Shown here: in pieces, positions 13,753-47,405 of the stretch
Layout of the letters: every line of letters begins with the position of its first letter
Position numbering within the stretch: position 1 is the stretch's first letter
Source: Pontiella desulfatans
GTDB lineage: Bacteria > Verrucomicrobiota > Kiritimatiellia > Kiritimatiellales > Pontiellaceae
Assembly: GCF_900890425.1 (NCBI RefSeq)
Contig: NZ_CAAHFG010000002.1
Location: 186,001-250,000, forward strand
DNA: 64,000 bases
Direction of reading: 5' to 3'
Made by a program: the position numbers and the translations under genes
The notes under the pieces: model-generated
Seen by the model: the letters and a program-made list of their open reading frames with translations, nothing else
Databases searched by the model: none
Told to the model about the DNA's origin: nothing

Positions 13753-14592
13753 ATGGCTGGCGTATCGGTTCTCATTTTAACCAAGAACGAAGAGACGAAC
13801 ATTGAGCGGTGCATCGACTCCGTTTCATGGTCGGACGACATTGTGGTATACGATTCCCTCAGCGACGACCGCACGGTCGAGCTTGCGGAAAAGCTCGGTG
13901 CCAGGGTCGTTAAGCGCAAGTTCGACAATTGGTCGGCGCACCAGAATTGGGGCGTGGAAAACATCGACTTCAAACATCCGTGGGTCTACTACACCGACGC
14001 AGACGAAACGTGCGACGACCAACTGCGCGCCGAGCTCCAAAACCTGCCGGAAACCGGCGAAGGCTTCTCCGCCTTCCAGGTAAGGCGCAAGGATTATTTC
14101 ATGGGGCGCTGGCTCAAGCGTTCGCAGCTGTATCCGACCTGGATCACCCGCGTTTTCCGCCCGGATAAGATCCGCTATGAACGCTTGGTCAACCCGGTGG
14201 CCGTGGTCGATGGAGCAACCGGCAAGCTCGAAGGGCACATCATCCACTATCCCTTTTCCCACGGGGTGGGGCACTGGTTCGATCGGCATAACAAATACTC
14301 GCAGATGGAAGCGACCGATCTCGTCGAGGAGGTGGCCGCGAAGGTGGGCTTCGGCGATTTCTTTTCCCGCGATGCCGCAACCAAGCGCCGCGCCCTCAAG
14401 ACCATGGCCTACCGCATGCCCGGACGCCCTGTTCTTATGTTCGGCTATCTCTACTTTTTCCGCTTGGGCTTGCTGGATGGTCTGCCCGGGCTGCGCTATT
14501 CCATCATGCGCTCGATGTATGAATACATGATTGATCTCAAGGTGGCGGAGATCCGCTACAAGGAACAAATGAACGAAGGAGAAATGCTTTGA
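13753..14592 (+). CDS. Family 2 glycosyltransferase (WaaE/KdtX type)
   Basis: A 279-residue GT-A enzyme of the lipopolysaccharide-core beta-transferase type. VSVLILTKNEETNIERCIDS opens the nucleotide-binding domain, IVVYDSLSDDRTVELA holds the first acidic pair, and WVYYTDADETCDD near residues 76-88 holds the D-x-D. The following FSAFQVRRKDYFMGRWLK is also characteristic. It starts two bases after the preceding stop and overlaps the TTG start of the next gene by four bases. It probably acts on a membrane-linked acceptor. Confidence 0.85.
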   Translation: MAGVSVLILTKNEETNIERCIDSVSWSDDIVVYDSLSDDRTVELAEKLGARVVKRKFDNWSAHQNWGVENIDFKHPWVYYTDADETCDDQLRAELQNLPETGEGFSAFQVRRKDYFMGRWLKRSQLYPTWITRVFRPDKIRYERLVNPVAVVDGATGKLEGHIIHYPFSHGVGHWFDRHNKYSQMEATDLVEEVAAKVGFGDFFSRDAATKRRALKTMAYRMPGRPVLMFGYLYFFRLGLLDGLPGLRYSIMRSMYEYMIDLKVAEIRYKEQMNEGEML

Positions 14593-15545
14593 AGATTTTG
14601 GTTACAGGAGCCGCAGGGTTCATCGGGTCGCATGTGGCGCATGAGCTACTGGACGATGGGCACGAGGTGGTCGGGCTCGATAATTACAACGGCTACTACC
14701 CGGTGTCGCTCAAGGAGGCGCGCCACGCCAAGCTTGAAGGAAGGGATGGCTATGTGGGGCTGCGGGGCGATCTGGCGGATTTCGAATTTCTGGTTTCTAG
14801 TTTCAAGTCTCATCGCTTCGACCGCGTTTGCCATTTGGCCGCCCAAGCTGGAGTCCGCTATTCATTGCAGAATCCGCACGCCTACGAGCAGTCCAACCTG
14901 GCCGGACACCTGAACATCCTCGAATGCTGCCGTCACAACGAAGTCCCCCGCTTGGTGTACGCGTCGAGTTCGAGTGTCTACGGCGGCAACAAGAAGGTGC
15001 CCTTTTCAGAGGATGATCCGGTTGATCACCCGGTCAGCCTGTATGCCGCGACCAAAAAGGCCAACGAGCTGATGACCCATTCGTACACGCATCTCTATGG
15101 CTTTCAATCCGTCGGTCTACGCTTCTTTACCGTCTACGGCCCGTGGGGCCGGCCGGACATGGCCTACTGGCTATTTTCCGATGCCATGCTCCAGGGCAAA
15201 CCGATCAAGGTTTTCAACCATGGCGATATGAAGCGCGACTTCACCTACATCGACGACATCGTCCAAGGCGTTAAGGCCTCGCTCTTTGCCGATGGACTGG
15301 AACCATACGAAGTATTCAACCTCGGCAACAACCAACCGGAATTGCTCATGGACATGATCCAATACCTAGGTGATGCCTTGGGCATCGAACCACAGATGGA
15401 AATGCTCCCCATGCAGCCCGGCGACGTGCCGATCACGTTTGCCGACATTGAAAAAGCGAAAGCCAAACTCGGCTACCAGCCCTCCACCCATCTCAAGGAA
15501 GGATTGACTCGATTCGTCGAATGGTTCAAGGATTGGAAACACTAG
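14589..15545 (+). CDS. NAD-dependent epimerase, UDP-glucuronate 4-epimerase type
   Basis: A 318-residue extended short-chain dehydrogenase. The Rossmann motif TGAAGFIGSHV lies at residues 6-16, and the catalytic pair is Tyr152/Lys156 (YAATK) with Ser in the preceding SSSSVYGG block. RFFTVYGPWGRPDMAYWLF is the signature seen in UDP-glucuronate 4-epimerases, making UDP-galacturonate the likely product; other UDP-sugar epimerases are possible. Start is TTG at 14589, overlapping the previous stop as TTGA and giving the canonical MKILVTGAAG N-terminus. A UDP-glucose dehydrogenase at 32.6 kb could supply UDP-glucuronate as substrate. Confidence 0.85.
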   Translation: MKILVTGAAGFIGSHVAHELLDDGHEVVGLDNYNGYYPVSLKEARHAKLEGRDGYVGLRGDLADFEFLVSSFKSHRFDRVCHLAAQAGVRYSLQNPHAYEQSNLAGHLNILECCRHNEVPRLVYASSSSVYGGNKKVPFSEDDPVDHPVSLYAATKKANELMTHSYTHLYGFQSVGLRFFTVYGPWGRPDMAYWLFSDAMLQGKPIKVFNHGDMKRDFTYIDDIVQGVKASLFADGLEPYEVFNLGNNQPELLMDMIQYLGDALGIEPQMEMLPMQPGDVPITFADIEKAKAKLGYQPSTHLKEGLTRFVEWFKDWKH

Positions 15546-15549
15546 TCCA

Positions 15550-16329
15550 ATGAAAATCTCGATCATAACCGCAACCTGGAATTCCGAGGCGAGCATTGCC
15601 GATACGCAGCGCTCGCTCGCGGAGCAGGAGTTTCCGCGCGACCGGATCGAGTGGATCGTGGTGGACGGTGCCTCGACCGACCGTACCGTAGAAACAATCA
15701 AGGCCGGCGATTTCCAGCCCGACAAGCTGGTGTCGGAAAAGGACAACGGGATCTATGACGCCCTCAACAAAGGGGTGCGCATGGCCACCGGCGATTTTGT
15801 CGGCTTCCTGCATGCCGATGATTTCCTGGCATCGCCCGGAGTGCTCAATCGCATTTCGTGCGCGTTGGAGAATTCCGGGGCAGACGCGCTCTATGGCGAC
15901 CTGCAATATGTCCGCCCGCAGGCTGATGGCGGTTTTGGCGTGGTGCGGCATTGGGAGAGTGGAATCTACCACCGTCGGAGCTTGGCCCGGGGCTGGATGC
16001 CTCCGCATCCGACGCTCTACCTCAAACGCGAGATCTACGAGCGAACCAAGCTCGAGACCGGCGAATTTTTCAACACGGCATACACCTGTGCGGCCGACTA
16101 CGATTTCATGATGCGCATCCTCGGGAAATACGAGGTCGAGCCGGCCTATCTCCGCATGGTGCTTGTGAAAATGCGGGTGGGCGGCGTGAGCAACCGCAGC
16201 CTGAAGCACATCATCCAGAAATCCCGCGAGGACTGGGAAATCATCAGGAAAAACCAGATTGGCGGCATCCATACCCTCGCGTGGAAAAACCTTGGCAAGC
16301 TCATGCAGTTTGTCGTGCGCAAGCCGTAG
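15550..16329 (+). CDS. Glycosyltransferase family 2
   Basis: A 259-residue GT-A enzyme of the compact WcaA-like group. KISIITATWNSEASIADT opens the protein, WIVVDGASTDRTVE gives the first Asp pair, SEKDNGIYDALNKGV near residue 60 is the family-specific block, and FLHADDFLA near residue 90 is the D-x-D. The next gene (NRPS) begins 26 bases downstream, so the two are probably co-transcribed. Last recognisable glycosyltransferase of the operon before the NRPS-like genes. Confidence 0.85.
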   Translation: MKISIITATWNSEASIADTQRSLAEQEFPRDRIEWIVVDGASTDRTVETIKAGDFQPDKLVSEKDNGIYDALNKGVRMATGDFVGFLHADDFLASPGVLNRISCALENSGADALYGDLQYVRPQADGGFGVVRHWESGIYHRRSLARGWMPPHPTLYLKREIYERTKLETGEFFNTAYTCAADYDFMMRILGKYEVEPAYLRMVLVKMRVGGVSNRSLKHIIQKSREDWEIIRKNQIGGIHTLAWKNLGKLMQFVVRKP

Positions 16330-16355: not shown

Positions 16356-19013
16356 ATGTCGGTTAAAAATTTCCCATCGAACGATCCCCTGGCGCGGGTT
16401 GATGCACTGGTTTCTCGCATGGCGGCGAACCAGCCGGATCAGCCCGCCGTTTGTTTCGGCTACCAGCGCTTGAGCTACCGCGAGTTGGAGCACCGTGCGA
16501 ACGGCGTGGCGGAGGCCTTGCTCGAACGCGGCGTAAAATCCGGCGATTTGGTCGGCGTCTACATGGAGCGCTCGGCGCTGATGCCGGTCGCGCTGCTTGG
16601 CGTGCTGAAAACCGGCGCGGCCTATGTGCCGATGGATCCGGCCTATCCCGCGCAACGCATCCAATGGATGGTCGAGGATGCAACGATGCACACCATGCTC
16701 ACCGACGCCGTGCACGAGGAGACTGTGCGTGGATTCGGCGTGGAACCGGTCCGCGTTGATGAATTGGCGCCTTCGAAAACATGCCCGGAAGCCAGCACCG
16801 ATCCCGATGGCTTGGCCTATGTCATCTTCACCTCAGGTTCCACCGGTCGCCCAAAGGGCGTTCAAATTCCGCATCGGGCATTGACCAACTTTATTGTGTC
16901 GATGCAGCAAGTGCCCGGCATGACGGCCGACGATGCCTTGCTCGCGGTCACCACCTTGTCGTTCGATATAGCCGGTCTTGAAATGTTTCTTCCTCTCGTT
17001 GCGGGGGGACGTTTGGTCGTTGCTTCCAAGGAGACGGCGATGGATGGCAAGGCGTTGCTGCAGACCATCGAAGCGGAAGCCATTACCATCCTGCAAGCAA
17101 CCCCGGTCACCTGGAAGCTGATGCTGGCCGCTGGCTGGGACGCGTCGCCCAACCTCAACGTGCTCTGCGGCGGCGAGGCCTTCCCGCGCGATCTCGCCAA
17201 CACGCTCGTTCCCAAGGCCGCTTCGGTCTGGAACATGTATGGCCCCACCGAAACCACCATCTGGTCGACCTGCGACCAGGTTGCTGTCGATGAGGGTTCG
17301 GTTAGCATCGGACTCCCGATCGCCAACACCACCGTCCATATCGTTGATGAAGCCATGAAGCCGGTGCAGGATGGGACGGAGGGTGAATTGGTCATTGGTG
17401 GCGACGGACTGGCCATCGGTTATTTGAACAATCCGGAAATGACCGCCGAAAAATTCACGACGCTCTCCGGCTCCGTAGAGCGTATCTACCGGACGGGCGA
17501 CCTCGCCCGCTACTTGCCCGATGGCCGGCTCGAATGCCTTGGCCGCATCGACCACCAGGTTAAGCTGCGTGGCTTTCGCATCGAACTCGGCGAAATCGAA
17601 TCCGCCCTGCGCGCCCACGAGGCGGTGGCCGATGCCGCCGTGGCTTTGTACGACAACGACGGCAACCCGCGTCTCGTCGCCTACCTCATCCTTTCCGGCG
17701 GGCAGGCCATCGATCTTTCCTCGTCCATCCACTCCTGGCTGGTTGACCGGCTCCCGGCCTACATGGTTCCATCGGGTTTCACCTTGCTCGATGAATTTCC
17801 TCTCACGCCCAACGGAAAGCTCGACCGCAAGGCCTTGCCCGAGCCGGTCGGCGCCATTCCGCTGCAGCCCGGCGGCGATGTTGACTACCAGTCCGAAACC
17901 GAATCGCGCCTGGCCGGCATCTGGCGCGAGCTGCTTGGATACGACGCCGTCCCGCGCGACATCGATTTCTTCGAACTCGGCGGCGACTCCATCCGCGCCG
18001 CGCAAATGTTCGTTGGAATCAAGGAGCGTTTCGGCCTCGACCTGACGCTGGCGGTGCTGGTGCAGGCCTCCACCATCGAATCGCTCGCGAAGCGCATCGA
18101 CTCCGGCGGCGCGGACGACCTGGCCGAGTATCGCTCGCTCAAGCGCATCCAGTCCGGTTCCGAAGGCACCGTGCCCATGTTCTGGGTGCACGGCGGCGAT
18201 GGCCATGTTTTGATCTTCCGCTTCTTTGCCGAAAACCTCGGCGCCGATGTGCCGGTCTATGCCTTCCAATGGACGGGCATGGACGGCGGGCGCGGCGAGG
18301 CCTCCATCATGGAAATGGCCCAGGCCTACTGCGCCGAGCTCCTGCGTTTCCTGCCGGCCGATGCCCGCACGATCCGTCTCGGCGGCTTCTGCGTCGGCGG
18401 TTTGGTGGCGGTTGAGCTGGCCAAGTTGCTCAAGGCCGCGGGTGTCGAGGTACTCGATCCGCTCGTCATTGTCGGCGCGCCCAACCACGGGGCCAAGTGC
18501 CACATCAAGTCCGAGCCGGAGCAATCCCCGCAGGAGTTCAAGCGCATGCTCGAACAAATGGAAAAACTGAAGGTTGTGGCCGAGGCCGAGGTGCCTTGGG
18601 AATACATCCGCCCGGATCATGGCGGCGGCCTCAAGGGCGCCATCAAGCAGAGCGCGCCCTATGCCATGGCGCGCCGCCTTCGCACCGAGAAGCGGCTCCG
18701 GCAGATCGACCGCGAAGCCGCCGCCGGGCAGGGGGTCGATCCCGCCACGCGCCAGTGGTATTGTGGACAGACGGCGGTTGTGGCCATGATCCACCACCGC
18801 AACCAATCCTACGACGGCGACATCCTCTATTTCCGCTCCGGCGTCTGCCACGGCGAAGCCATGGGGCTCTGGGGTTGGTGGAACAGTCCCTACATGGGCT
18901 TCGAGGAATTGTGCAACGGCCACTTCGAAGGCGTGGTGATCGGCGGTGCGCACGAGGATGTCCTGCGCCGTCCCGAAACGGCCAACAAGGTGCGGGAAAG
19001 GTTCAATGCCTGA
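16356..19013 (+). CDS. Stand-alone NRPS protein 1: adenylation-carrier-thioesterase
   Basis: An 885-residue single-module synthetase without a condensation domain. Adenylation domain, about residues 1-500: core motifs YVIFTSGSTGRPKGV (A3), NMYGPTETTIW (A5), GRIDHQVKLRGFRIELGEIE (A8) and NGKLDRKALP (A10). The Asp that binds the substrate amino group is kept (SFDIAGLE). My reading of the pocket code, D-I-L-Q-L-G-M-I-W-K, is close to glycine codes. Carrier domain: phosphopantetheine Ser545 in LGGDS. Thioesterase domain, about 610-885: nucleophile elbow GGFCVGG with Cys679 in place of Ser, and a C-terminal GGAH (His866). Start is the ATG at 16356; the long upstream open frame overlaps the glycosyltransferase and is rejected. 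The end overlaps the next synthetase by eight bases. Product unknown; location implies aminoacylation linked to the polysaccharide. Confidence 0.85.
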   Translation: MSVKNFPSNDPLARVDALVSRMAANQPDQPAVCFGYQRLSYRELEHRANGVAEALLERGVKSGDLVGVYMERSALMPVALLGVLKTGAAYVPMDPAYPAQRIQWMVEDATMHTMLTDAVHEETVRGFGVEPVRVDELAPSKTCPEASTDPDGLAYVIFTSGSTGRPKGVQIPHRALTNFIVSMQQVPGMTADDALLAVTTLSFDIAGLEMFLPLVAGGRLVVASKETAMDGKALLQTIEAEAITILQATPVTWKLMLAAGWDASPNLNVLCGGEAFPRDLANTLVPKAASVWNMYGPTETTIWSTCDQVAVDEGSVSIGLPIANTTVHIVDEAMKPVQDGTEGELVIGGDGLAIGYLNNPEMTAEKFTTLSGSVERIYRTGDLARYLPDGRLECLGRIDHQVKLRGFRIELGEIESALRAHEAVADAAVALYDNDGNPRLVAYLILSGGQAIDLSSSIHSWLVDRLPAYMVPSGFTLLDEFPLTPNGKLDRKALPEPVGAIPLQPGGDVDYQSETESRLAGIWRELLGYDAVPRDIDFFELGGDSIRAAQMFVGIKERFGLDLTLAVLVQASTIESLAKRIDSGGADDLAEYRSLKRIQSGSEGTVPMFWVHGGDGHVLIFRFFAENLGADVPVYAFQWTGMDGGRGEASIMEMAQAYCAELLRFLPADARTIRLGGFCVGGLVAVELAKLLKAAGVEVLDPLVIVGAPNHGAKCHIKSEPEQSPQEFKRMLEQMEKLKVVAEAEVPWEYIRPDHGGGLKGAIKQSAPYAMARRLRTEKRLRQIDREAAAGQGVDPATRQWYCGQTAVVAMIHHRNQSYDGDILYFRSGVCHGEAMGLWGWWNSPYMGFEELCNGHFEGVVIGGAHEDVLRRPETANKVRERFNA

Positions 19014-21624
19014 TCACGCTTCGTATCCCGAAACCTGCGCCCACCGGCTTTTCGAGGAGCAGGTGGAAAGCAACCCGGATGCGGTTGCGCTGATGTTCGG
19101 AGCGGAGCGGATGTCCTATGCCGCGCTCAACGCCCGCGCCAACCGGATTGCGCACGGCCTTGTGGCAAAGGGCGCGAAGCCGGGACAATGCGTTGCGATG
19201 TTGCTCGAACGTAGCTTCGACCAGGTCGCCGTGGCCCTGGCCATTCTCAAGGCGGGCGCGGCCTATGTTCCGCTCGACCCAACCCTTCCGCCGGAGCGCA
19301 TCGCGCAGATGGTCGATGATGTCCAACCGCCGGTGGTGGTATCCGCTGACTCCTTCGATGATTTGTTGACGGACAACGAAGAAAACCCGGGCATTGAAGT
19401 TGATCTGGAATCCCTCGCCTATGTGATCTTCACCTCCGGGTCGACCGGTCGACCGAAGGGCGTCGAGATGCCGCACCGCGGGTTGGTGCGCCTGGTGAAA
19501 AGTGCGCAGGATTATATCCGGCTCGACCGCAACAGCGTGCTGCTTCAGATGGCCTCCATCTCGTTCGATGTCTCCGTCTTCGAAATCTGGGGCATGCTGC
19601 TCAACGGTGGAGCACTGGCGCTCTGCCCCCACAAGGTGCCGACCATGGAGCAGGTCGGTAGGCTGCTTGCGGAGCACCGCGTCAATATTCTGCTGATGAC
19701 CGCCGCCTTCTTCCATCTCGTGGTGAAGGAGGACCCGCACATCTACGACCCGTTGGAGTATTTGATGGTGGGCGGAGAGGCGCTCTCGGCCTGGCATGTT
19801 GGCGAGGCGTTGCGCGAGCTGCCGAACCTCTGCCTCATGAACGCCTACGGTCCCACCGAAAACTCGGTCAACTCCACCGTGCACGTCTTCGACCGCGCCA
19901 CCTTCGATCCCGCCGCGCCGGTGCCCATCGGTCGCCCGGTGGCCAACACCACCGCCTACATCCTCGACCGCCACCAAGGTCCGGTGCCCGTCGGCGTGAC
20001 CGGTGAGCTGGTGGTGGGCGGCGACGGCGTGGCGCGCGGCTATGCCGCCCGCCCCGACTTGACCGCCGAACGCTTCCTGCCCGATCCCTTCAGCAAGCAA
20101 CCTGGCGCACGCATGTACCGCACCGGCGACCAGGCCTGTTGGAATCCGAAAGGGGAGATCGAATTCATTGGCCGGTTGGACAACCAGGTCAAGCTACGCG
20201 GCTTCCGCATGGAGCTGGGCGAGATCGAGGCCTCCCTCGCGGAGCATCCCGAGGTGGAGCAGGCCGTGGTGGTGCTCTACGAGGACGATGCGCGCGGCAA
20301 GTGGCTGTGTGGTTTTATACAGGTCGAAGATCCCGCGTCCTTTTCCGCCGATGGTCTGAAAGAATTCGCCCGTTCGAAGCTGCCGGAATATATGGTGCCC
20401 TCCGCTTTGGTTCCGCTGAAGGAGTGGCGCTTCACGCCCAATGGCAAGATCGATCGCAAGGCACTACCCAAACCGGACGTTGCGCATTCGCAGGAAGAGG
20501 TGGCCTATGAAAGCGCTACCGAGGAGGCGATGGCGGAACTATGGAAAGAGCTGCTTGGGCTCAACGCCGTTCCGCGCAATGTGGGCTTCTTCGAACTCGG
20601 CGGCGACTCGCTGCTGGCCGTGAACCTCTTCCTCAAGATCCACCAGCGCTTCGGGCGCGACTATACGCTTTCAACCTTGCTGGAGGCCCCGACCCTCGCC
20701 GCGCTTGCGCGCGAAATCGACGGAGGGGATGAAGGCGGCGGACAAAAGTCGCTCAAGCTGATCCGCCAGGGCGATGCTTCGCTGCCGCCCCTGTTCTGGT
20801 TCCACGGCGGCGACGGGCACGTGCTGCTCTTCAAGCACTTCGCCGAAAACTACGAGACGAACCAGACGATCTATGCCTTCCAGTATGCCGGGCTCGATGG
20901 CCGCCCCGGCGAGCCTTCGGTGGAGGAGATGGCGCAAGCCTATCTCGCCGAGCTGCTGGAGGTTCATCCCCGCGGCAAGGTGCGGCTTGGCGGCTACTGC
21001 ATCGGCGGCTATGTCGTGATGGAGGTTGCCCGCTTGCTGAAGGCCACGGAGGTCGAGGTGCTCGACCCGCTCGTGGTGGCGGGGTCGCCCAATGTGCGCG
21101 CACGCAGCTTCCATCCGCGCGAACCCGAATCCTCGGCCCAATCGCTGGTGGCCTTCCGCGCCATGTGCGATGCCATGGAGGCGCAAAAGGTGGTTGCCGA
21201 TGCGCCGATGCACCGCACCTATGATGCGCCCAACCATGGCTGGCTGAAGCAAACGCAACTCTATGCCCATGCCCGCCGCATGCGCACCTGGAACCGCCTG
21301 ATGAAGATGACCCAGGCCGCGCGCAACGGCGAGCCGATCGAGCCGGCATCGCGCGGATGGTATTGCGGCAACATCACGACGCTGGCGGGCGAGCGGCACC
21401 GGAGCCGGGGCTATGACGGCGACATCCTGTATTTCCGCAGCGGCGTCTGCCATGGGTCGGCCATGAATTTCCGCGGGTGGTGGTCGAGCCTCTTCATGGG
21501 GTTCGAGGAGCTGTGCCGCGGCAACTTCGAGGGCATCGTGGTGGGCGGCCTGCACGAGGACATGCTCAAACGCCCCGAGGTGGCGGCGATGGTTAAAGAT
21601 AGGTTTGATGCCAATGACGAATGA
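19006..21624 (+). CDS. Stand-alone NRPS protein 2: adenylation-carrier-thioesterase
   Basis: An 872-residue paralogue of its neighbour with the same order. Adenylation: YVIFTSGSTGRPKGV, NAYGPTENSVNST, GRLDNQVKLRGFRMELGEIE, NGKIDRKALP. The amino-group Asp is present (SFDVSVFE); my pocket reading D-V-F-L-M-G-A-V-N-K matches no substrate I recognise. Carrier Ser535 in LGGDS. Thioesterase elbow GGYCIGG with Cys665 as nucleophile and His850 in GGLH. At the place where the acidic triad member usually follows a strand, the text is VVAGSPN, without Asp. Start is the ATG at 19006, overlapping the previous gene by eight bases. The close similarity of the three proteins indicates duplication followed by divergence of substrate pockets. 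Confidence 0.85.
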   Translation: MPDHASYPETCAHRLFEEQVESNPDAVALMFGAERMSYAALNARANRIAHGLVAKGAKPGQCVAMLLERSFDQVAVALAILKAGAAYVPLDPTLPPERIAQMVDDVQPPVVVSADSFDDLLTDNEENPGIEVDLESLAYVIFTSGSTGRPKGVEMPHRGLVRLVKSAQDYIRLDRNSVLLQMASISFDVSVFEIWGMLLNGGALALCPHKVPTMEQVGRLLAEHRVNILLMTAAFFHLVVKEDPHIYDPLEYLMVGGEALSAWHVGEALRELPNLCLMNAYGPTENSVNSTVHVFDRATFDPAAPVPIGRPVANTTAYILDRHQGPVPVGVTGELVVGGDGVARGYAARPDLTAERFLPDPFSKQPGARMYRTGDQACWNPKGEIEFIGRLDNQVKLRGFRMELGEIEASLAEHPEVEQAVVVLYEDDARGKWLCGFIQVEDPASFSADGLKEFARSKLPEYMVPSALVPLKEWRFTPNGKIDRKALPKPDVAHSQEEVAYESATEEAMAELWKELLGLNAVPRNVGFFELGGDSLLAVNLFLKIHQRFGRDYTLSTLLEAPTLAALAREIDGGDEGGGQKSLKLIRQGDASLPPLFWFHGGDGHVLLFKHFAENYETNQTIYAFQYAGLDGRPGEPSVEEMAQAYLAELLEVHPRGKVRLGGYCIGGYVVMEVARLLKATEVEVLDPLVVAGSPNVRARSFHPREPESSAQSLVAFRAMCDAMEAQKVVADAPMHRTYDAPNHGWLKQTQLYAHARRMRTWNRLMKMTQAARNGEPIEPASRGWYCGNITTLAGERHRSRGYDGDILYFRSGVCHGSAMNFRGWWSSLFMGFEELCRGNFEGIVVGGLHEDMLKRPEVAAMVKDRFDANDE

Positions 21625-24253
21625 TACAGTCAACCAATGGCTTGCGCACGGCGCGGCCGCAAACGCAGGCAACCCGGCGCTCGTGTTTGGCGAAGCCTCG
21701 CTGACCTATGCCGAACTCGATGCCCTTTCGAACCGTATTAAGAACCACCTGGCGCGGGCCGGGGCGGGGCGCGGCGGGAAGGTGGGGTTATGCCTCGACC
21801 GCTCCATCGAAATGGTCGCCGTGCTGCTGGGCATCCTCAAGGCGGGCGCGGCGTATGTCCCGCTCGATCCGGCCTATCCGGCCGAGCGCCTCGGCATGAT
21901 GGCCGAGGATGCGCGGCTTCAGTGCACGGTTGCGCACGCAGCCCATGTCGATCGCCTCGGAAAGATTGATTCGAAGATTCTGGTGTGGGAAGAGATGGCC
22001 GATGCCGTTGCTTCGGAACCGGATGCTGGCCCGGTTGTTGATGTTGATCCCGAAGACAACGCCTACATCATTTTCACCTCCGGCTCGACCGGGCGGCCGA
22101 AAGGGATCGAGATGCCGCACCGGGCCTTGGCGAACCTGGTCGAGTGGCAACTGCTGCGCAAGACCTTCAAGCCGGGCGCGCGGGTGCTGCAATATTCGAG
22201 CATCAGCTTCGATGTCTCCTTCCAGGAGATCGCCACCACCTTCGCATCGGGGGGGACGCTCCATCTCGTTTCCAACGACGACCGCAAGGATCCGCGCAAG
22301 CTGCTGAAGCAGCTCATCGACCAAAAGATCGGTCGCCTGTTCCTGCCCTATGTCGCGATGCGCAGCATCATCGAGGCGGCGCACATGAACGGCACCTACC
22401 CGCTGGAACTGAAAGAGACCATCACCGCCGGCGAACAACTTCGCGTCGATGGCGTCGTGCGCGACTATTTTTCGCGGATCGAAGGCGCCTCGCTCGACAA
22501 CCAGTATGGCCCGTCGGAGACGCACGTCATCACCGCCCATCTACTGGAGGGCGATCCTGCCGCGTGGCCGGACCTGCCGAGCATTGGCAAGGCCATCGAC
22601 CATTGTGAAACATTCATTTTCGACGAGGCCATGGAGCCTGTTCCGGCTGGGGAGGAGGGCGAGCTCTACCTCGGTGGCCGCAACCTGGCGCATGGCTACA
22701 TCGGCCGCGAGGATTTGACGAAGCAGGCCTTTGTCGAGGTTGACGGGCATTCCGTGCTCTACCGGACCGGCGACCTTGCGGCGTTCAATCCCGATGGCTC
22801 CATCGAGTTCCGCGGGCGGCGCGACCACCAGATCAAGGTGCTCGGCCACCGCGTTGAACCGGGCGAGATCAACAATGCCGCCTCGCAGTTCCCGGGCATT
22901 GGCCAGTGCCTCACCCACGCCTTCAAGAGCGACGACGGCGTGACGCGCCTTGCGGCCTACTACACGGTCAAGCCGGGCGAGGCGGTGGCCTACGTTGCCC
23001 TGCGCGAACACCTCGATGCCCGCCTGCCCGACTACATGGTGCCGGCCTTCCTGATCGAACTGGATGAAATTCCCTACACCCCGAGCGGCAAGGTGGATCT
23101 GAAGTCGTTGCCGAAACCGTCGATCGCCAACAGCCGCTATGCCGGCGAGGCGGGCGGCTATGAATCGCCAACCGAAGAGCGGCTGGCGGAGATCTGGGGC
23201 GAACTGCTGGGGCTCGACGGCATCCCGCGCTCGGCCGATTTTTTCGAACTCGGCGGCGACTCGCTGCGCGCGGTGACGCTGTTCCTGAAGATCGAAAAAC
23301 AGTTCGGATGCGACCTGCCGTTGGCAACCCTGCTGCGGGCTTCGACCATCGAGGCGCTGGCGCGGCACATCGACGAAGGCGCGGACGACGGCTTTGCGGA
23401 TTGCCGTTCGCTGAAGCTGCTGCAGCGCGGCCAGCCGGGCGTTGCGCCGCTCTTCCTGGCGCATGGCGGCGCGGGCAACATCCTGTGCTTTTCAACGTTT
23501 GCAAAAAACCTGGGTTCCGGCCAGCCGGTCTATGCCTTCCAGTGGTCGGGCTGGGATGGCGGGCGTGGCGAGACGACCATCGAGGCGATGGCGCAGGCCT
23601 ATCGCGACGAGCTGCTGAAGCATTTCCCGGATACGCCGGTGCGCATCGGCGGCTACTGCATTGGCGGCTACATTGCAATCGAGCTGGCCCGGCTGCTTCG
23701 CGAGGCCGGGGTGGAGGTGCTCGGCCCGTTGGTGGTGTTCGATTCGCCGAACCTGCGTTCGAAGGCGTACCGCCGCAAGGAGCCGGCCGGGGAGGCGGAA
23801 TACCGGCGCGTCCAATCGGCGCTGGCCGAAAAGAAGCTTTGCACCGACGCCATCAATCTGCACCAGCCGCCGGCCCCGTTGCCGTGGCTTAAGCGTACGC
23901 CGCCCTATGCGCTGATGCGCATCCTGCGGACGCGCAAGCGGCTCGAGGGCTACGACCGCATGGCCGCCGAGGGCAAGGTGGTTCCGGTGGACGCGCGCAA
24001 CTGGTATTGCGCGCAGACCCAGAAGGCGGCGGTTCGGCGCCACCGCTGCCGGGGGACGGATATGCCGGTGCTCTACCTGCGCTCCGAATGCCAGGGGGAG
24101 GAAATGATGCTGCCGGGCTGGTGGAGCACGATGTTCATGGGGTTCGACGAAGTGTGCAACGGCGGTTTCGCCGCGCACGTCATTGGCGGTGGCCACGGCG
24201 AAATCCTGGAGCACCCCAAGGTGGCCGAGTTGGTCGGCGAGGCGTTCGGGTGA
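21614..24253 (+). CDS. Stand-alone NRPS protein 3: adenylation-carrier-thioesterase
   Basis: An 879-residue third paralogue. Adenylation: YIIFTSGSTGRPKGI, NQYGPSETHVIT, GRRDHQIKVLGHRVEPGEIN, SGKVDLKSLP. The Asp is kept in SFDVSFQE; the pocket reading D-V-Q-F-I-A-Q-V-I-K resembles proline-type codes (D-V-Q-x-I-A-H-V-V-K) with Gln for His. Carrier Ser550 in LGGDS. Thioesterase elbow GGYCIGG with Cys682, His861 in GGGH, and unlike the other two an Asp at the canonical acid position (VVFDSPN). Starts at 21608 or 21614 are possible; 21614 gives an 11-base overlap, closer to the 8-base overlap between the first two. The stop overlaps the next GTG as GTGA. Confidence 0.85.
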   Translation: MTNDTVNQWLAHGAAANAGNPALVFGEASLTYAELDALSNRIKNHLARAGAGRGGKVGLCLDRSIEMVAVLLGILKAGAAYVPLDPAYPAERLGMMAEDARLQCTVAHAAHVDRLGKIDSKILVWEEMADAVASEPDAGPVVDVDPEDNAYIIFTSGSTGRPKGIEMPHRALANLVEWQLLRKTFKPGARVLQYSSISFDVSFQEIATTFASGGTLHLVSNDDRKDPRKLLKQLIDQKIGRLFLPYVAMRSIIEAAHMNGTYPLELKETITAGEQLRVDGVVRDYFSRIEGASLDNQYGPSETHVITAHLLEGDPAAWPDLPSIGKAIDHCETFIFDEAMEPVPAGEEGELYLGGRNLAHGYIGREDLTKQAFVEVDGHSVLYRTGDLAAFNPDGSIEFRGRRDHQIKVLGHRVEPGEINNAASQFPGIGQCLTHAFKSDDGVTRLAAYYTVKPGEAVAYVALREHLDARLPDYMVPAFLIELDEIPYTPSGKVDLKSLPKPSIANSRYAGEAGGYESPTEERLAEIWGELLGLDGIPRSADFFELGGDSLRAVTLFLKIEKQFGCDLPLATLLRASTIEALARHIDEGADDGFADCRSLKLLQRGQPGVAPLFLAHGGAGNILCFSTFAKNLGSGQPVYAFQWSGWDGGRGETTIEAMAQAYRDELLKHFPDTPVRIGGYCIGGYIAIELARLLREAGVEVLGPLVVFDSPNLRSKAYRRKEPAGEAEYRRVQSALAEKKLCTDAINLHQPPAPLPWLKRTPPYALMRILRTRKRLEGYDRMAAEGKVVPVDARNWYCAQTQKAAVRRHRCRGTDMPVLYLRSECQGEEMMLPGWWSTMFMGFDEVCNGGFAAHVIGGGHGEILEHPKVAELVGEAFG

Positions 24254-25290
24254 AGGTCGTTTTCCGCTTGGCGTTGGCAGTCTACCTGCTGGCCATTGCC
24301 TTTTTTGCGTTCCGTCCGTTCCAGCCCATCCATGGCCGAACCTATCCGGATGCCGCTCCCGCAACCAACGGTGTTGTCTGTGCCGGGGCTGCGCTTGAGG
24401 ATATGGAGGGTTCAAGGCTACTGCGGGAATCGTTGGCCAAGACCGGTCGGATGTCGTTGGAGGTTTTGCTGAAATCAGATGCACTGGGGCAGGGCGGCCC
24501 TGCCCGGGTCATCTCGCTTTCACTACATACCATGTGCCGTAATTTCACGCTGGGGCAGGACGGTAACGGGTTGGCGTTCCGGTTGCGTACCTCGGAAACC
24601 GATGGTAACGGAATGTATCCCAGCTTGCTGGTACCCCAGGTGTTTGATGAAAACAGATTCCAGCATTTCGTGGTTACGTATGATGGCGGGCTGGTTCAGC
24701 TCTTTGTCGATGGCGTGCTCCATCCTCAATCCGTGGAACTGCAGGGCGATTTCTCAAACTGGGGAAAAAACCATTTGCTCACGGTGGGCGATGAACCGAG
24801 CGGGGTTCGGCCATGGAAGGGACGGGTCGCCCATTTTTCCGTCTATGATCGGGCGTTGGAATCCCGCGAGGTCGAACTACTGAAGGCGGGTGGGGATGTG
24901 CCTGGGGCAGTCTATTCCTTTCCCGTCCCGAACGCCATGCGCCCGTTGCGCTACCGCAACCTGTTTGTCAATACCGATCCATTCTTCAATCTGGGCGATT
25001 GCGTGGCCAACATTGTTGCGTTCGTTCCGCTTGCGCCATTGTTGTGCGTTGTGTTCTTGGCGCGGCTCCGGAAGCCAGTGGCGGTTGTTGCCGTGCCGCT
25101 GGTCGCAGGATTCCTGATTAGTGGGGTGATTGAGTTGCTGCAGCGCGGAATCATGGGGCGCGTACCGTGTTTGGCTGATCTGGCCTACAACGTGCTTGGT
25201 ACGTTGATCGGCTGTGGTTTGTTATGGCTGGGATTGAAGCATCGCGGTGTTTCGGCGATGATGCGAACGGAACAGGGAGACATGGAATGA
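24250..25290 (+). CDS. VanZ-type membrane protein with inserted LamG domain
   Basis: A 346-residue membrane protein. Residues 1-22 ([22 protein letters not shown]) form the first helix of a VanZ-like protein; the remaining VanZ helices are at the C-terminus, with [20 protein letters not shown] near residue 245 and [10 protein letters not shown]...[19 protein letters not shown] after it. Between them, about residues 60-220, is a LamG/concanavalin-like jelly-roll ([40 protein letters not shown]), expected to face the periplasm and bind glycan. GTG start at 24250 overlaps the upstream synthetase stop (GTGA) and the stop overlaps rfbF (ATGA), so it is coupled to both. Function unknown; a glycan-sensing or surface-attachment role is an inference. 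Confidence 0.75.
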
Positions 25291-26066
25291 AAGCGGTAAT
25301 CTTGGCAGGTGGATATGGTACGCGGATCAGCGAGGAAAGCTCGGTGCGACCGAAGCCGATGGTGGAGATCGGGCCGGAGCCGATCCTCTGGCATATCATG
25401 AAGATCTATGCCGCGCACGGCATCACCGATTTCATTGTGGCCTGCGGCTACAAGGGCAACATGATCAAGGAATATTTTTCCAAGATGTTCATCAACGAGT
25501 CGGATGTGACGTTTGATCTCGTGGGCAACACGCTGGAAGTCCACCATTCCCGGGTTGAGCCTTGGCGGGTCACCTGCGTGGATACCGGGGAGAAAAGCAT
25601 GACGGGCGGGCGGTTGCGGCGTGTCCGGCAGTATCTGGACGAGGAAACCTTCTGCATGACCTATGGCGATGGGGTGTGCGATATCAATATCACGAACGAG
25701 CTGGCCTTCCACAAGCGGTCGGGGCTGCTCGCCACCATGGGCGCCATCAGGCCGCCGGGACGCTTCGGCGCATTCACCCTGGAGCCGGGCGAACAAACCG
25801 TGTCCGACTTTTGCGAGAAGCCCGACGGCGATGGCGCGTGGATCAACGGTGGTTTCTTTGTGCTGGAGCCGGGGGTGTTCGGCTATATTCCCGACGACCA
25901 GACCTCGTGGGAGCTGGAGCCGTTGCAGGGCTTGGCCCACGATGGCCAGCTCGGCGCGTTCCGCCACTCCGGCTTCTGGCAGCCGATGGATACGCTGCGC
26001 GACAAGCATGTGCTTGAGGAATTGTGGGAGTCCGGCGAAGCCCCCTGGAAAGTGTGGAACGATTAA
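25287..26066 (+). CDS. rfbF: Glucose-1-phosphate cytidylyltransferase
   Basis: A 259-residue nucleotidyltransferase making CDP-glucose from CTP and glucose 1-phosphate. [29 protein letters not shown] spans the nucleotide-binding loop and catalytic Lys; [20 protein letters not shown] and the [10 protein letters not shown] block match RfbF/DdhA closely, as does the length. The ATG at 25287 overlaps the previous stop. CDP-glucose normally feeds 3,6-dideoxyhexose or related branched-sugar pathways via CDP-glucose 4,6-dehydratase (RfbG), which is not in this window, so the remaining steps are elsewhere or the downstream methyltransferase and epimerase act on another product. Confidence 0.9.
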
Positions 26067-26088
26067 AAAACAAACCGAGGATCATAAG

Positions 26089-27021
26089 ATGGCAGTGAAA
26101 CTGCAAGAACCAGAATTTGTCTACATGAACGGCAAGCTGACGAAGTGGGCCGATGCCACGCTCCACATCGGTACCGAGGCCGTTACGCGGAGCCTGAACG
26201 TGTTCGAGGGGCTCAAGGGCTATTGGCAGAAGGACGGGAGCTTCGGCATCGTCTTCATGCGCCGCCACTACGAGCGCCTGTTGCGTTCCGCCAAGCTGAT
26301 GCACCTGCCATGCCCATGGAGCTACGGGGAATATGAATCCGCCGTCCACGAGCTGCTCGGTGCATTGCTGACCAAGGAGCAGGACATGTGGGCGCGCGTC
26401 ACCCTCTTCGGTGTCGAGGGCCACTGGGGGGTCGGCACAAAATCCGATATGGTCGTCACCGCATACAACCAGCGCAAGGAGCAGCCCGCGCCGATCAAGA
26501 TCGGCATCAGCACCTGGCAACGGAGCGGCGACAACGCGCTGCCGTATCGGGTGAAAGCGGGCGCCAACTACGAGGTCGGCCGTCTCGCCCGGATCGAGGG
26601 GGCGCGCCTGGGTTATTCCGATATGATTCTCTTGAACTCCGCCGGGCGCGTTTCCGAGGCCACGGCCTCGTGCGTGGTGATGGTGCGCGATGGCGTGGTC
26701 TACACCACGCCGCACTACGAAGGTTCGCTCGAAAGCGTCACCCTCGATTTTGTCGCGGAGATCGCCAAGTCGCTCGGCTATGAGTTCGTCGTCCGCCCGA
26801 TCGACCGCACCGAACTCATGATCGCCGACGAGCTGGCGCTGGTCGGCTCGCTTGCCGAGCTGGTGCCGGTGGAGGAGGTCGATGGTTTCCAGCTCAATCC
26901 CAACGGGAAAATCATTACGGCCATCCGTAAAAGGTTTTTCGCGATCGTCCGCGGTGAAGACAACTCCCTCGATGCCGAATTCTCCTTCGTCCCCAACGAC
27001 CAAATCCGCAGCTTGGATTAA
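26089..27021 (+). CDS. Class IV aminotransferase, branched-chain type
   Basis: A 310-residue PLP enzyme of the BCAT/D-amino-acid aminotransferase fold. The PLP Lys is in YRVKAGANYEVGRLA near residue 157, followed by DMILLNSAGRVSEATASCVVMV (the segment that differs between branched-chain and D-amino-acid enzymes) and VVYTTPHYEGSLESVTLD. A 22-base gap separates it from rfbF; start ATG at 26089 follows CCGAGGATCATAAG. Sugar aminotransferases in such loci are normally fold-type I, so this enzyme more likely handles an amino or keto acid, perhaps supplying a substrate for the three NRPS-like proteins. It could instead be an ordinary ilvE. Confidence 0.8.
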   Translation: MAVKLQEPEFVYMNGKLTKWADATLHIGTEAVTRSLNVFEGLKGYWQKDGSFGIVFMRRHYERLLRSAKLMHLPCPWSYGEYESAVHELLGALLTKEQDMWARVTLFGVEGHWGVGTKSDMVVTAYNQRKEQPAPIKIGISTWQRSGDNALPYRVKAGANYEVGRLARIEGARLGYSDMILLNSAGRVSEATASCVVMVRDGVVYTTPHYEGSLESVTLDFVAEIAKSLGYEFVVRPIDRTELMIADELALVGSLAELVPVEEVDGFQLNPNGKIITAIRKRFFAIVRGEDNSLDAEFSFVPNDQIRSLD

Positions 27022-27116: not shown

Positions 27117-28406
27117 ATGTCAAAGGCAACTGAAATGGTGGATATGTTTGGTTTGGTGGAGCGGTTGTATCCGATCTGCCGCAGCATCACCGGCGACGGT
27201 GTGCGCGAGACGCTGCGGGTGGTCGGCGAACACATTCCGCTCGACCTCCACGAAGTACCCACCGGCTCGCCGGCGTTCGACTGGAAAGTGCCCGACGAAT
27301 GGAACATCCGCGATGGCTGGATCAAGAATCCGGCGGGTGAAAAGATCGTCGATTTCCAACAGCTCAACCTCCACGTGCTTAACTATTCCGAGCCGGTGCA
27401 CAAAACCGTTTCGCTTGAAGAACTAAAGCAACATGTTTTCACGCTGCCCGAACAGCCCGGCTGGGTTCCGTACCGCACCTCCTACCACAACCGTAACTGG
27501 GGCTTCTGCATGGCGCATCGCCAATTCGAGGCGTTGGGGGAGGGCGACTACGAGGTGTTCATCGACTCCTCCCTCGAACCGGGGTCGCTGACCTACGGCG
27601 AGCTGCTGGTTCCCGGTGCGTCGGAAAAGGAAGTGCTGTTTGTCACGCACGTCTGCCATCCGTCGCTCTGCAACGACAACCTAAGCGGCATCGCCGTCGC
27701 CACCGCGCTCGCGCAAAAGCTGGCGGCGATGGAAACCAACCAGTCATACCGCTTCCTGTTCCTGCCCGCCACCATTGGTGCCATCACCTGGCTCAGTCGC
27801 AACCAGGACAAGCTCGATCGCATCAAGCACGGCCTCGTGCTTTGCCTGCTGGGCGACAACGGCAAATTCCACTACAAAAAGAGCCGCGACGGCAATGCCG
27901 GAATCGACCGCATCGTGCCGCGCGTCCTAAAGCAGTCTGTCAACGATTTTGAAACGATGGAGTTTTATCCCTACGGCTACGACGAACGCCAGTTTTGCTC
28001 CCCGGCCTTCGATCTGCCGGTCGGTCGCCTCAGCCGCGCCGTGCACGGCGAGTTTCCCGAATACCACTCCTCCGCCGACAACCTCGACTTCGTCAGCGAA
28101 GTCGCCATGCAGGAGTCGTTGGATGTGTTGCAACAGGTGGTCGAATCCATCGAAGGCGCGGAAACCTACATCAACCTCAAGCCCGAATGCGAACCGCAGC
28201 TCGGCCGCCGCGGCCTCTTCAAGCCCATCGGCGGGCAGGCCGAAACCAAGGACTACCAAATGGCCCTGCTCTGGATCCTTAGCCTCTCCGACGGCCACCA
28301 CTCCCTCGAAGACATCGCCGAACAATCCGGCCTAAGCCTGGACATCCTCCGCAAGGCCGTCGATGAACTGTTGAAAACCGATCTGTTGGCGCTTGCTTCT
28401 GCGTAG
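27117..28406 (+). CDS. DUF4910 aminopeptidase-like protein
   Basis: A 429-residue cytosolic protein of the DUF2172/DUF4910 group, found in polysaccharide loci. It has an M28-like zinc-peptidase core: VTHVCHPSLCNDNLSG near residues 175-190 supplies His and Asp ligands, and EFPEYHSSADNLDFV near residue 312 supplies a further His/Asp pair. The last 70 residues form a winged-helix (LLWILSLSDGHHSLEDIAEQSGLSLDILRKAVDELL). Start ATG at 27117 has no clear ribosome-binding site because repeat family A abuts it; Met at 27132 is an alternative. The substrate is unknown. Beside the aminoacyl-activating proteins, action on an amide-linked amino acid of the glycan is conceivable. Confidence 0.8.
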   Translation: MSKATEMVDMFGLVERLYPICRSITGDGVRETLRVVGEHIPLDLHEVPTGSPAFDWKVPDEWNIRDGWIKNPAGEKIVDFQQLNLHVLNYSEPVHKTVSLEELKQHVFTLPEQPGWVPYRTSYHNRNWGFCMAHRQFEALGEGDYEVFIDSSLEPGSLTYGELLVPGASEKEVLFVTHVCHPSLCNDNLSGIAVATALAQKLAAMETNQSYRFLFLPATIGAITWLSRNQDKLDRIKHGLVLCLLGDNGKFHYKKSRDGNAGIDRIVPRVLKQSVNDFETMEFYPYGYDERQFCSPAFDLPVGRLSRAVHGEFPEYHSSADNLDFVSEVAMQESLDVLQQVVESIEGAETYINLKPECEPQLGRRGLFKPIGGQAETKDYQMALLWILSLSDGHHSLEDIAEQSGLSLDILRKAVDELLKTDLLALASA

Positions 28407-28472: not shown

Positions 28473-28847
28473 ATGAAAATGTGGATACAACAACACGACT
28501 TCACATCTGAAGAAGTTGATGGGGCAACCAAAGAGCAGGCAAAGAAAGCTTTGGCAACATTTGATTGGCAGAGTGAAATTCTGAAAGAAAAAGAATCAAA
28601 AGAAGAAACATGTCCTTCAGGGCTCGGCCTTATTTCAGATTCAAATGAAATTCTCCACATTTGCCCGAGAGCATCAGAGTCGTGTTTAGTTCATTACCAT
28701 TACTCTACACAGAAGAAATTATTGGGATTTATTCCAGTGAAGAATCAAGGCAGCCATTTTGTTGAATCATGCTCAATCGCCAAAGCAATGGATTTGATCG
28801 ATCATCATTTTGATGGAAATCAGGAAGAAATACTTAAGATAAATTAA
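28473..28847 (+). CDS. Hypothetical protein, AT-rich insert
   Basis: A 124-residue soluble protein that I do not recognise. It has no signal peptide or membrane segment, three Cys residues (ETCPSGLG, HICPRASESCLVHYH) and an acidic/lysine-rich N-terminal third. It is much more AT-rich than the polysaccharide genes around it and begins the 28.4-30.1 kb insert that also carries toxin-antitoxin genes, so horizontal origin is likely. Two Met codons (28473 and 28479) could start it and neither has a good ribosome-binding site. Confidence 0.45.
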   Translation: MKMWIQQHDFTSEEVDGATKEQAKKALATFDWQSEILKEKESKEETCPSGLGLISDSNEILHICPRASESCLVHYHYSTQKKLLGFIPVKNQGSHFVESCSIAKAMDLIDHHFDGNQEEILKIN

Positions 28848-28923
28848 TTCACACACCATTAACCATGAGCAAGGTCTAAGGGCAGTCCGGTGAAATAATT
28901 CCGAAGGGAAAGGGAAGAAACAA

Positions 28924-28983
28924 ATGAAGTGCCACCATTGTAAAACCGAGTTGGAACATGTGTTCCTGGATCTGGGGTTTGCC
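28924..28983 (+). pseudogene. Duplicated 5' fragment of the methyltransferase gene
   Basis: Sixty bases identical to the first sixty coding bases (30148-30207) of the intact C-methyltransferase, encoding MKCHHCKTELEHVFLDLGFA up to its last codon. After 28983 similarity falls off quickly, though a short shared TTCGAATTC follows in both, so an older and longer match may have decayed. The fragment and the intact gene bracket the HicB-like and Phd/ParE genes, as expected if that segment was inserted by a recombination event that duplicated the gene start. Confidence 0.85.
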
Positions 28984-29043
28984 TCACATTCGAATTCATC
29001 TGTGACTTCCGATGCATTGCGCTGTAGGCGCAACACAATTTAG

Positions 29044-29126
29044 CCTTGGGCAACGCCCAAGGAACCAAAACCCGATGCAATAGGTCTTGTCCTGTAGGGA
29101 CAACACAAACGGAACCTTGTGTTGTC
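29044..29126. repeat. Paired hairpins upstream of hicB-like gene
   Basis: Two perfect inverted repeats: CCTTGGGC-AAC-GCCCAAGG (29044-29062, 8-bp stem) and GACAACACAA-N8-TTGTGTTGTC (29099-29126, 10-bp stem). They lie between the methyltransferase fragment and the HicB-like gene and could be transcription terminators, repeat elements or operator DNA. No T-run follows either stem on the + strand. Confidence 0.6.
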
Positions 29127-29154
29127 AGGTCAACTCCGTAATCGGAGATGCAGT

Positions 29155-29322
29155 ATGAGCAAAGAATTTAATGTGGTAATCGAACGGGATGAAGATGGAT
29201 ATTATGTTGCATCGGTTCCCGCATTGCGCGGATGCCACACGCAGGCCAAATCCCTTGACGTGCTTATGCGCCGTGTTCAGGAAGCCATTTCCCTGTGCCT
29301 TGAGGTCGAAAACCCCCTTTAA
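29155..29322 (+). CDS. Orphan HicB-like antitoxin domain protein
   Basis: A 55-residue protein matching the N-terminal fold of HicB antitoxins: FNVVIERDEDGYYVASVPALRGCHTQAKSL..., then RRVQEAISLCLEVE. Typical members are about 70 residues or more; this one ends right after the helix, so it may be a short member or 3'-truncated. No HicA-like toxin (small basic double-stranded-RNA-binding-domain protein) is found within the insert. ATG at 29155 is used. It sits upstream of a Phd/ParE pair in the AT-rich insert. Confidence 0.65.
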   Translation: MSKEFNVVIERDEDGYYVASVPALRGCHTQAKSLDVLMRRVQEAISLCLEVENPL

Positions 29323-29457
29323 TCTGAATATTCCGAAATTCAAAAAGGAAAGCAGGATTGGGCGCAGAAAGCTATCCGCCTCATATATATCCCAAATGCA
29401 GAATCGACAATTGTACATTATGTGATACGTTTTTGTGTACGCATAAGGAGTAAGACC

Positions 29458-29739
29458 ATGCAGAGATTGATTCTAGATCAAGATATTAAACCGATGTCTG
29501 AATTCAGAGCGCATACCGCCGCCTGCATTCAGCAAGTTCAGAAATCAAAGCGTCCTGTGGTGATTACACAACACGGTAAAAGTGCTGCTGTTTTGATTGA
29601 TGTTTCAGAATTTGAAGCCATGGCTCAACGGTTAGAGCTTTTAGAGGATATTGCCTTGGGAGAATCCATGATTGATGAAGGAAAAGGCGTTCCCCACGAC
29701 AAGGCCAAAGAAATGATTCTGAAGAGCATTCCCAGATGA
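29458..29739 (+). CDS. Phd/YefM-family antitoxin
   Basis: A 93-residue antitoxin. MSEFRAHTAACIQQVQKSKRPVVITQHGKSAAVLIDVSEFEAM is the Phd/YefM DNA-binding and dimerisation domain; the C-terminal third (EDIALGESMIDEGKGVPHDKAKEMIL) is the toxin-binding tail. ATG 29458 is preceded by AAGGAG. The stop overlaps the toxin start (ATGA), the usual translational coupling. It is expected to bind its own promoter; a GTACA...TGTAC inverted repeat spanning about 29413-29440 is a candidate operator. Confidence 0.9.
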   Translation: MQRLILDQDIKPMSEFRAHTAACIQQVQKSKRPVVITQHGKSAAVLIDVSEFEAMAQRLELLEDIALGESMIDEGKGVPHDKAKEMILKSIPR

Positions 29740-46590: not shown

Positions 46591-46634
46591 CTGGATAGGA
46601 TTCGCGGTTGCCTGTTGCTTGGTTTTCAATAAGA

Positions 46635-47405
46635 ATGCGTTGGATGGAAACCATTGAAGACATTGGGCAGCTCCCTGAACTGGACAACGATACGATCCAT
46701 ATCTGGGGTGTGCATGTACCCGGGGTGCTGGATCGGCTGGAGGCGCTGCAGGCCGGGCTCTGTGTCGCCGAACGGGAAAAAGCCGCGCGGTTCCTTCGTG
46801 AGAGCGACCGGCAGTCGTCCATTGCCTCGCGTGGCGCGCTCCGGGTTTTGCTTTCGGTCTACACCGGAGTTCCCTCCAACGAGATTGCGTTTGGATATTC
46901 GGATAACGGGAAGCCGTATCTGGAATATGGCGCAGGCTTTCCTGCCTGCGCCGGGCAGGCTGGAAAGCCTGCCCCACATAGTAAATGTCCTCCCTCAGAG
47001 GTGGCTTTCAACGTCTCCCATTCCGGCGAATGGGTGGTACTGGCTTTCGGACGGAACCGCCAGATTGGTGTTGATGTTGAAAAGATTCGTCGGGAAATGG
47101 ATGTGATGGCTATTGCATCGCGTTATTTCACGCCGGAGGAGTGTGCCGGGATCGAGGGCGCGGAAGATATCCATGCGGCCTTTTTCCACTATTGGTCGCG
47201 CAAGGAGGCCTACATCAAGGCCTGTGGTTCTGCGCTCTTCCGCGAACTCAGCACCTTCGCCGTTCCGTGCGAGGATGGCGAGAAGGGCGGCTGGCATTTC
47301 CGGCGATTGGACGCCGGCTCGAACTATGCATCGGCCGTCGTCTCGGACCGTCCCCTTGGCAACCTGCCGTGTTATGACTTCAGCCTGCTGGAATGGCGAA
47401 TGTGA
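46635..47405 (+). CDS. Sfp-type 4'-phosphopantetheinyl transferase
   Basis: A 256-residue enzyme that transfers phosphopantetheine from CoA to carrier-protein Ser residues. Family motifs: GKPYLE (P1) near residue 95, VAFNVSHSGEWVVLAFG (P2), IGVDVEKIR with the Mg-binding Asp, and FFHYWSRKEAYIKACG (P3). It is the only such enzyme in the window and probably activates the three NRPS carrier domains at 16-24 kb. Between P1 and P2 is an extra 20-25 residues (GAGFPACAGQAGKPAPHSK...) encoded by two back-to-back palindromes; related enzymes have a short loop there. ATG 46635 is chosen over a TTG at 46608. Its ribosome-binding site is weak. Confidence 0.9.
   Translation: MRWMETIEDIGQLPELDNDTIHIWGVHVPGVLDRLEALQAGLCVAEREKAARFLRESDRQSSIASRGALRVLLSVYTGVPSNEIAFGYSDNGKPYLEYGAGFPACAGQAGKPAPHSKCPPSEVAFNVSHSGEWVVLAFGRNRQIGVDVEKIRREMDVMAIASRYFTPEECAGIEGAEDIHAAFFHYWSRKEAYIKACGSALFRELSTFAVPCEDGEKGGWHFRRLDAGSNYASAVVSDRPLGNLPCYDFSLLEWRM
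46929..46974. repeat. Double palindrome inside the PPTase coding sequence
   Basis: GGCGCAGGC-N6-GCCTGCGCC (46929-46952) is directly followed by GGGCAGGCT-GGAA-AGCCTGCCC (46953-46974). The two hairpins are also complementary to each other (AGGCTTTCC with GGAAAGCCT). The whole is in frame and encodes the extra loop of the enzyme. Confidence 0.85.

Follow-up and report, generated by a model that had tools for sequence, protein, structure and literature searches.

Three A-T-TE genes in a polysaccharide locus

The window, a stretch of 64,000 nucleotides corresponding to C2:186001-250000 of the 8.66-Mb genome (window G+C 56.6%), carries three adjacent genes whose products combine an adenylation (A), a carrier (T) and a thioesterase (TE) domain in this order:

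16356..19013, + strand: A-T-TE 1, 885 aa (Pfam domains, pocket code, active-site residues)
19006..21624, + strand: A-T-TE 2, 872 aa (Pfam domains, pocket code, code of the sister clade)
21614..24253, + strand: A-T-TE 3, 879 aa (Pfam domains, pocket code, active-site residues)

The initial annotation had described three such neighbouring genes, with complete adenylation motifs (A3/A5/A8/A10), an LGGDS carrier site and no condensation domain, lying amid glycosyltransferase and sugar-nucleotide genes, and each of these points was borne out. Specifically, open reading frames of 885, 872 and 879 codons' worth of residues are found at the positions listed above, the first two overlapping by 8 bases and the last two by 11, and a Pfam search of the three proteins returned AMP-binding (E-values from 1e-88 to 1e-71), AMP-binding_C, PP-binding and Thioesterase above the cut-offs in every one of them, and a Condensation domain in none. 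The architecture is therefore that of NRPS-like A-T-TE enzymes. The carrier serine lies within an ELGGDS motif (Ser545, Ser535 and Ser550 in A-T-TE 1, 2 and 3, respectively), the A10 lysine is present in all three proteins, and signal or clear membrane segments are absent. Pairwise identities are 38-40% for the A domains, 44-56% for the carrier region and 45-54% for the thioesterases.

Pfam matches on the neighbouring genes place this set within a polysaccharide locus, the closest members of which are the following:

14589..15545, + strand: SDR of the UDP-glucuronate-epimerase type (Pfam), a conserved upstream neighbour, with 77-87% identical orthologues in most loci
15550..16329, + strand: GT2 glycosyltransferase (GT2_15550), the upstream edge of the A-T-TE slot
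24247..25290, + strand: LamG-VanZ membrane protein (Pfam, hydropathy), overlapping A-T-TE 3 by 7 bases
25284..26066, + strand: glucose-1-phosphate cytidylyltransferase (RfbF, CDP-glucose), TIGR02623 above cut-off
26086..27021, + strand: class-IV aminotransferase resembling ilvE, with a score under the equivalog cut-off, which occurs in the three loci of greatest similarity
27117..28406, + strand: DUF4910/DUF2172/HTH_47 protein (Pfam), in the same three loci as the aminotransferase

Further glycosyltransferases, hexapeptide transferases and a UDP-glucose dehydrogenase were recognised in the locus by Pfam, and Wza-like and Wzc-like genes, read from their translations, lie just upstream of the window. 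The genes at 36-1583 and 4218-5519 have no Pfam match; both are multi-spanning by hydropathy and stand at the sites expected for a flippase and a polymerase. The gene usually found downstream of A-T-TE 3 is that at 24247-25290, whose product fuses a LamG domain to a VanZ membrane domain. We considered, and dropped, a connection of the ilvE-like aminotransferase with A-T-TE 2, since in B1224 (L001) the aminotransferase is accompanied by A-T-TE 3 alone.

To the right of these genes, the stretch 28473-30053, between the DUF4910 and C-methyltransferase genes, holds genes for a ParE toxin and for two antitoxins, one HicB-like and one of the Phd/YefM type; in L001 and L004 the DUF4910 and C-methyltransferase genes stand side by side. 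Some 100 bases from the beginning of the methyltransferase gene recur at its left (28913-29012 versus 30137-30236, 88% identical), and this adjoining duplication suggests that the toxin-antitoxin stretch is an insertion.

By comparing the loci of the genus, a recurrent order appears: GT4 genes, hexapeptide transferase, GT2, SDR, GT2_15550, one to three A-T-TE genes, and then LamG-VanZ or sugar-nucleotide genes. GT2_15550 is present in 17 of the 28 genus genomes, namely all 15 that carry A-T-TE genes and two that do not, and A-T-TE genes are absent from all 11 genomes without it (Fisher's exact p = 3.6e-6, in a test that ignores shared ancestry and incomplete genomes). The slot can also be empty: in G019 GT2_15550 is followed directly by the glucose-1-phosphate cytidylyltransferase gene, which thus also occurs in a locus without A-T-TE, and in G015 by a VanZ-like gene. 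G007 has a gene of this kind too, between GT2_15550 and its first A-T-TE gene. The number of copies at the slot ranges from 0 to 3, single enzymes being common.

Predicted substrates and cysteine thioesterases

The pocket codes of the A domains were read off an alignment anchored at A4, A5 and A10. The code of A-T-TE 1, DILQLGMIWK, exactly matches a code reported for Gly domains (PMC12283262). That of A-T-TE 2, DVFLMGAVNK, has no exact match and is branched-chain-like, the nearest code being the Ile-type DAYLTGLMNK; its sister clade (P. sulfatireligans and relatives) shows DAFWLGGTFK, an exact match to a code listed as Val. The A-T-TE 3 code, DVQFIAQVIK, is Pro-like, differing by two conservative changes from DVQFVAQVVK, which is listed as a Pro code (PMC9113097), and is identical in nearly all A-T-TE 3 orthologues, the one from Chloroflexota included. 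All together, these codes predict loading of Gly by A-T-TE 1, of a branched-chain amino acid by A-T-TE 2 and of Pro by A-T-TE 3. In addition, Asp235, the amino-acid-binding residue, was found in 20 of the 20 A domains read, and Lys517 in every domain reaching that far, which argues against keto-acid substrates.

The thioesterase nucleophile, a feature absent from the initial annotation, is Cys and not Ser in all 19 distinct thioesterases from the window and its relatives, each within a GxCxG motif as in Cys thioesterases and aminoacyl transferases. The residues concerned are C679 in A-T-TE 1, C665 in A-T-TE 2 and C682 in A-T-TE 3, and the corresponding histidines are His866, His850 and His861; both Cys and His are invariant across the thioesterase alignment (16 rows). 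The Asp after beta6 is kept in A-T-TE 3 (FDSPN) and in the type-3 copies (DSPN) and is missing in A-T-TE 1 (VGAPN) and A-T-TE 2 (AGSPN), in which part of the triad is thus altered. Both the alpha/beta-hydrolase fold and the sequence signature assign these domains to the type-I thioesterase family PF00975. An AlphaFold2 model of a type-3 thioesterase domain (pLDDT 89.9) gave Z scores of 19-24 against known thioesterases, the closest structure being AB3403 (4zxh; Z 23.6, 2.7 A over 211 residues), which, ObiF1 and SulM aside, is the only NRPS thioesterase of known structure to have a Cys nucleophile (PMC11298585). Thioesterases with Cys withstand attack by water and prefer other nucleophiles: the substitution C1146S turns ObiF to hydrolysis (PMC6668435), and C2818S does likewise in SulM (PMC11298585). 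By analogy with these enzymes, the Cys nucleophile of the A-T-TE thioesterases is consistent with transfer to a nucleophile that is not water, rather than with hydrolysis.

Genomic context, distribution and origin

A profile search of the whole 8.66-Mb genome found no condensation domain (PF00668), and none was found in 14 relatives carrying A-T-TE genes, where only stumps below the cut-off were seen; the same search was positive in control genomes. The genome therefore offers a condensation domain neither in cis nor in trans, as a canonical NRPS assembly line would have, and the arrangement that the initial annotation had named as counter-evidence, in which A-T-TE genes usually lie beside condensation-domain NRPS genes, did not emerge in this genome or in those relatives. 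MbtH was looked for and not found. Among the other large A-domain ORFs, the two examined are MFS-acyltransferase-AMP fusions. The carriers can be primed, because the window encodes a PF01648-type enzyme:

46608..47405, + strand: 4'-phosphopantetheinyl transferase, Sfp/HetI-like, the only PF01648 match of the genome

A phosphopantetheinyl transferase dedicated to the A-T-TE cluster was considered and dropped: as the sole match in the genome, this one probably serves the fatty acid ACP too, and presumably primes both.

The relatives of the window belong to the Pontiellaceae (Kiritimatiellota). Within the order, full-length thioesterase matches were restricted to the genus itself, in 15 of its 28 genomes, and among 388 Verrucomicrobiota genomes matches at E <= 1e-35 were again found in this genus only. 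A search of 400 Chloroflexota genomes returned a single copy, the one already known (G414), and the remaining phyla were covered by one contig scan, which finds close relatives only. Viral contigs held no A-T-TE relative, and plasmids only weak or partial matches to NRPS thioesterases. The Chloroflexota protein (L009, G414:C12:30416-33247) is of type 3, with the same Pro-like code, in a G+C-rich genome (G+C uniform at about 0.7); either inter-phylum transfer or independent use is suggested. No glycan gene was recognisable on its 35-kb contig, so that the link between A-T-TE enzymes and glycans is not universal.

Type-2 relatives of 1058, 1111 and 751 residues keep an N-terminal condensation-domain stump. 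Its matches are weak and confined to the C-terminal half of the profile (positions 253-276, 298-342 and 414-455 of 456), the catalytic N-terminal lobe being gone. Since relatives of A-T-TE 2 retain this stump, the A-T-TE enzymes appear to derive from C-A-T-TE modules in which condensation was lost. Moreover, the A domains form three deep groups in their tree and are more divergent among the copies than the thioesterases, which stay closer (38-40% versus 45-54%), and this suggests exchange of A domains in front of one thioesterase family. Between species the proteins are 53-75% identical, with motifs and pocket codes conserved. Two variant arrangements were also observed: in G011 (L030:6231-9466) separate genes encode an adenylation protein of 751 aa, which has a condensation stump, and a Cys thioesterase of 315 aa, and in L002 a carrier-thioesterase protein of 397 aa lacks an A domain.

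Proposed glycan aminoacylation, its alternatives and known systems

In conclusion, the A-T-TE genes form a genuine and conserved set whose products, free of condensation domains, are predicted to activate amino acids, with a known architecture and an apparently new role. As to that role, we consider it probable that A-T-TE 1 to 3 are stand-alone enzymes which activate and transfer aminoacyl groups, decorating the repeat unit of the Pontiella exopolysaccharide. The A domain would load Gly (A-T-TE 1), a branched-chain amino acid (A-T-TE 2) or Pro (A-T-TE 3) onto the phosphopantetheine arm; the thioesterase Cys would take the aminoacyl group from the carrier as a thioester and pass it on in the cytoplasm, before export, the acceptor being an amine or a hydroxyl group on either a sugar nucleotide or the lipid-linked oligosaccharide. 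Each type of copy would thereby bring its own amino acid to a similar acceptor, making the locus a modular decoration cassette with 0 to 3 enzymes. Acceptor, bond type and product are in this scheme what we infer, and it is the locus that points to a sugar as the acceptor. The initial annotation had proposed that the set activates amino acids and transfers them to a glycan, a sugar or each other: activation with transfer to a glycan is the best reading, strengthened by the conserved slot, the genome without condensation domains and the Cys nucleophile, while transfer to each other is less favoured.

The strain most probably in question produces exopolymers that are N-sulfated and glycosaminoglycan-like (PMC7356697), which implies sugar amines in them. 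No amino acid has been reported in the exopolymer, and no gene in the slot points to an amine or to a hydroxyl as the acceptor. The Chloroflexota orthologue without glycan genes and the loss of the usual Asp in A-T-TE 1 and 2 count against glycan decoration, and the thioesterases could also do no more than hydrolyse, or could yield a small product in free form.

Synthesis of a small molecule is an unlikely alternative in which the thioesterases would join aminoacyl groups into a short peptide, a diketopiperazine or another diffusible product, the position in the locus being incidental. A-T-TE enzymes elsewhere, such as the fungal quinone synthetases, do make dimeric small molecules, the Chloroflexota orthologue stands alone, and three distinct codes would suit a tripeptide; however, a fixed tripeptide does not account for a copy number of 0 to 3, often one, and the strict conservation of the slot in the genus and the lack of condensation domains in the genome also speak against it. 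We regard as slightly more improbable that the aminoacyl group is handed to another carrier, or modified while tethered as in CmaA-CmaE-CmaD, and then enters a sugar precursor, with the class-IV aminotransferase and the DUF4910 protein as part of the route. Precedents exist in aminoacyl shuttles like CmaE/SyrC (PMC8748450), and the A-less protein of L002 and the split pair of G011 would be in keeping with such a route, but the aminotransferase and DUF4910 genes occur in three loci only, and neither a free-standing carrier nor an oxygenase for tethered amino acids was recognised beside the A-T-TE genes. Dimerisation of keto acids, as by atromentin synthetase or RalA, has the shared domain order and the nearby aminotransferase gene in its favour and is very improbable in view of Asp235, Lys517 and codes of Gly, Pro and Val type that differ among the three enzymes. 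Hardly credible is a set of decayed, functionless NRPS remnants: condensation stumps and truncated or split versions do exist in relatives, but the frames are open, the motifs intact and the codes kept between species whose proteins are 53-75% identical, for A-T-TE 3 even between phyla.

Returning to glycan aminoacylation, a more specific proposal, for which we see about even chances, is that an NRPS-derived, condensation-free cassette of 0-3 A-T-TE enzymes, with similar Cys-thioesterases and exchangeable A domains, determines which amino acids are placed on the sulfated, glycosaminoglycan-like exopolymer of Pontiellaceae. For bacterial surface glycans, the way in which amino acids are attached is often not known. 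No A-T-TE or NRPS-like enzyme described in a polysaccharide locus was found in the part of the literature covered, outside which lie most subscription journals, and a role in glycan decoration is apparently undescribed. A culturable genus seems to reuse condensation-stripped NRPS modules as single-amino-acid transferases for its polysaccharide, and natural variation in enzyme number (0 to 3) and code (Gly, Val or Pro) among loci that are otherwise alike opens the idea to direct testing. If it is true, such stand-alone transferases, with a Cys thioesterase and A domains that can be exchanged, would be useful glycan-modifying tools.

Among known systems, the atromentin and polyporic acid synthetases and RalA have the same A-T-TE order in a single module without a condensation domain. 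They activate and dimerise aromatic alpha-keto acids, with an A domain lacking the amino-binding Asp at position 235, whereas amino-acid codes, a Cys nucleophile and a glycan locus are found here. From the likeness to atromentin synthetase and RalA drawn in the initial annotation, the domain order can thus be retained, and the keto-acid substrate, given Asp235, Lys517 and the amino-acid codes, cannot. ObiF1, SulM and AB3403 have the Cys nucleophile in common with the A-T-TE thioesterases, and AB3403 retains the Asp after beta6, as does A-T-TE 3. However, ObiF1 and SulM end condensation-domain NRPSs and release cyclised peptides, whereas the A-T-TE family is confined to one genus and one outlier; AB3403, unlike those two, is uncharacterised. 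In the CmaE/SyrC shuttles, which use Cys, an acyltransferase-like enzyme moves a single aminoacyl group from a carrier, as proposed here, and the A-T-TE0 protein PacP shares its layout with the Pontiella enzymes; these proteins feed natural-product assembly lines, whereas the Pontiella genome has no assembly line. The best understood carrier-thioester route for amino acids on surface glycans is, to our knowledge, the Dlt system (DltA-DltC-DltB/DltD), which D-alanylates teichoic acids. Dlt works like the scheme proposed for the A-T-TE enzymes, in that an amino acid reaches a surface polymer by way of adenylation and a carrier thioester, but it does so with separate small proteins (DltA, DltC) and membrane transfer by the MBOAT protein DltB, whereas in Pontiella adenylation, carrier and thioesterase domains are fused in one protein that ends in a Cys thioesterase.
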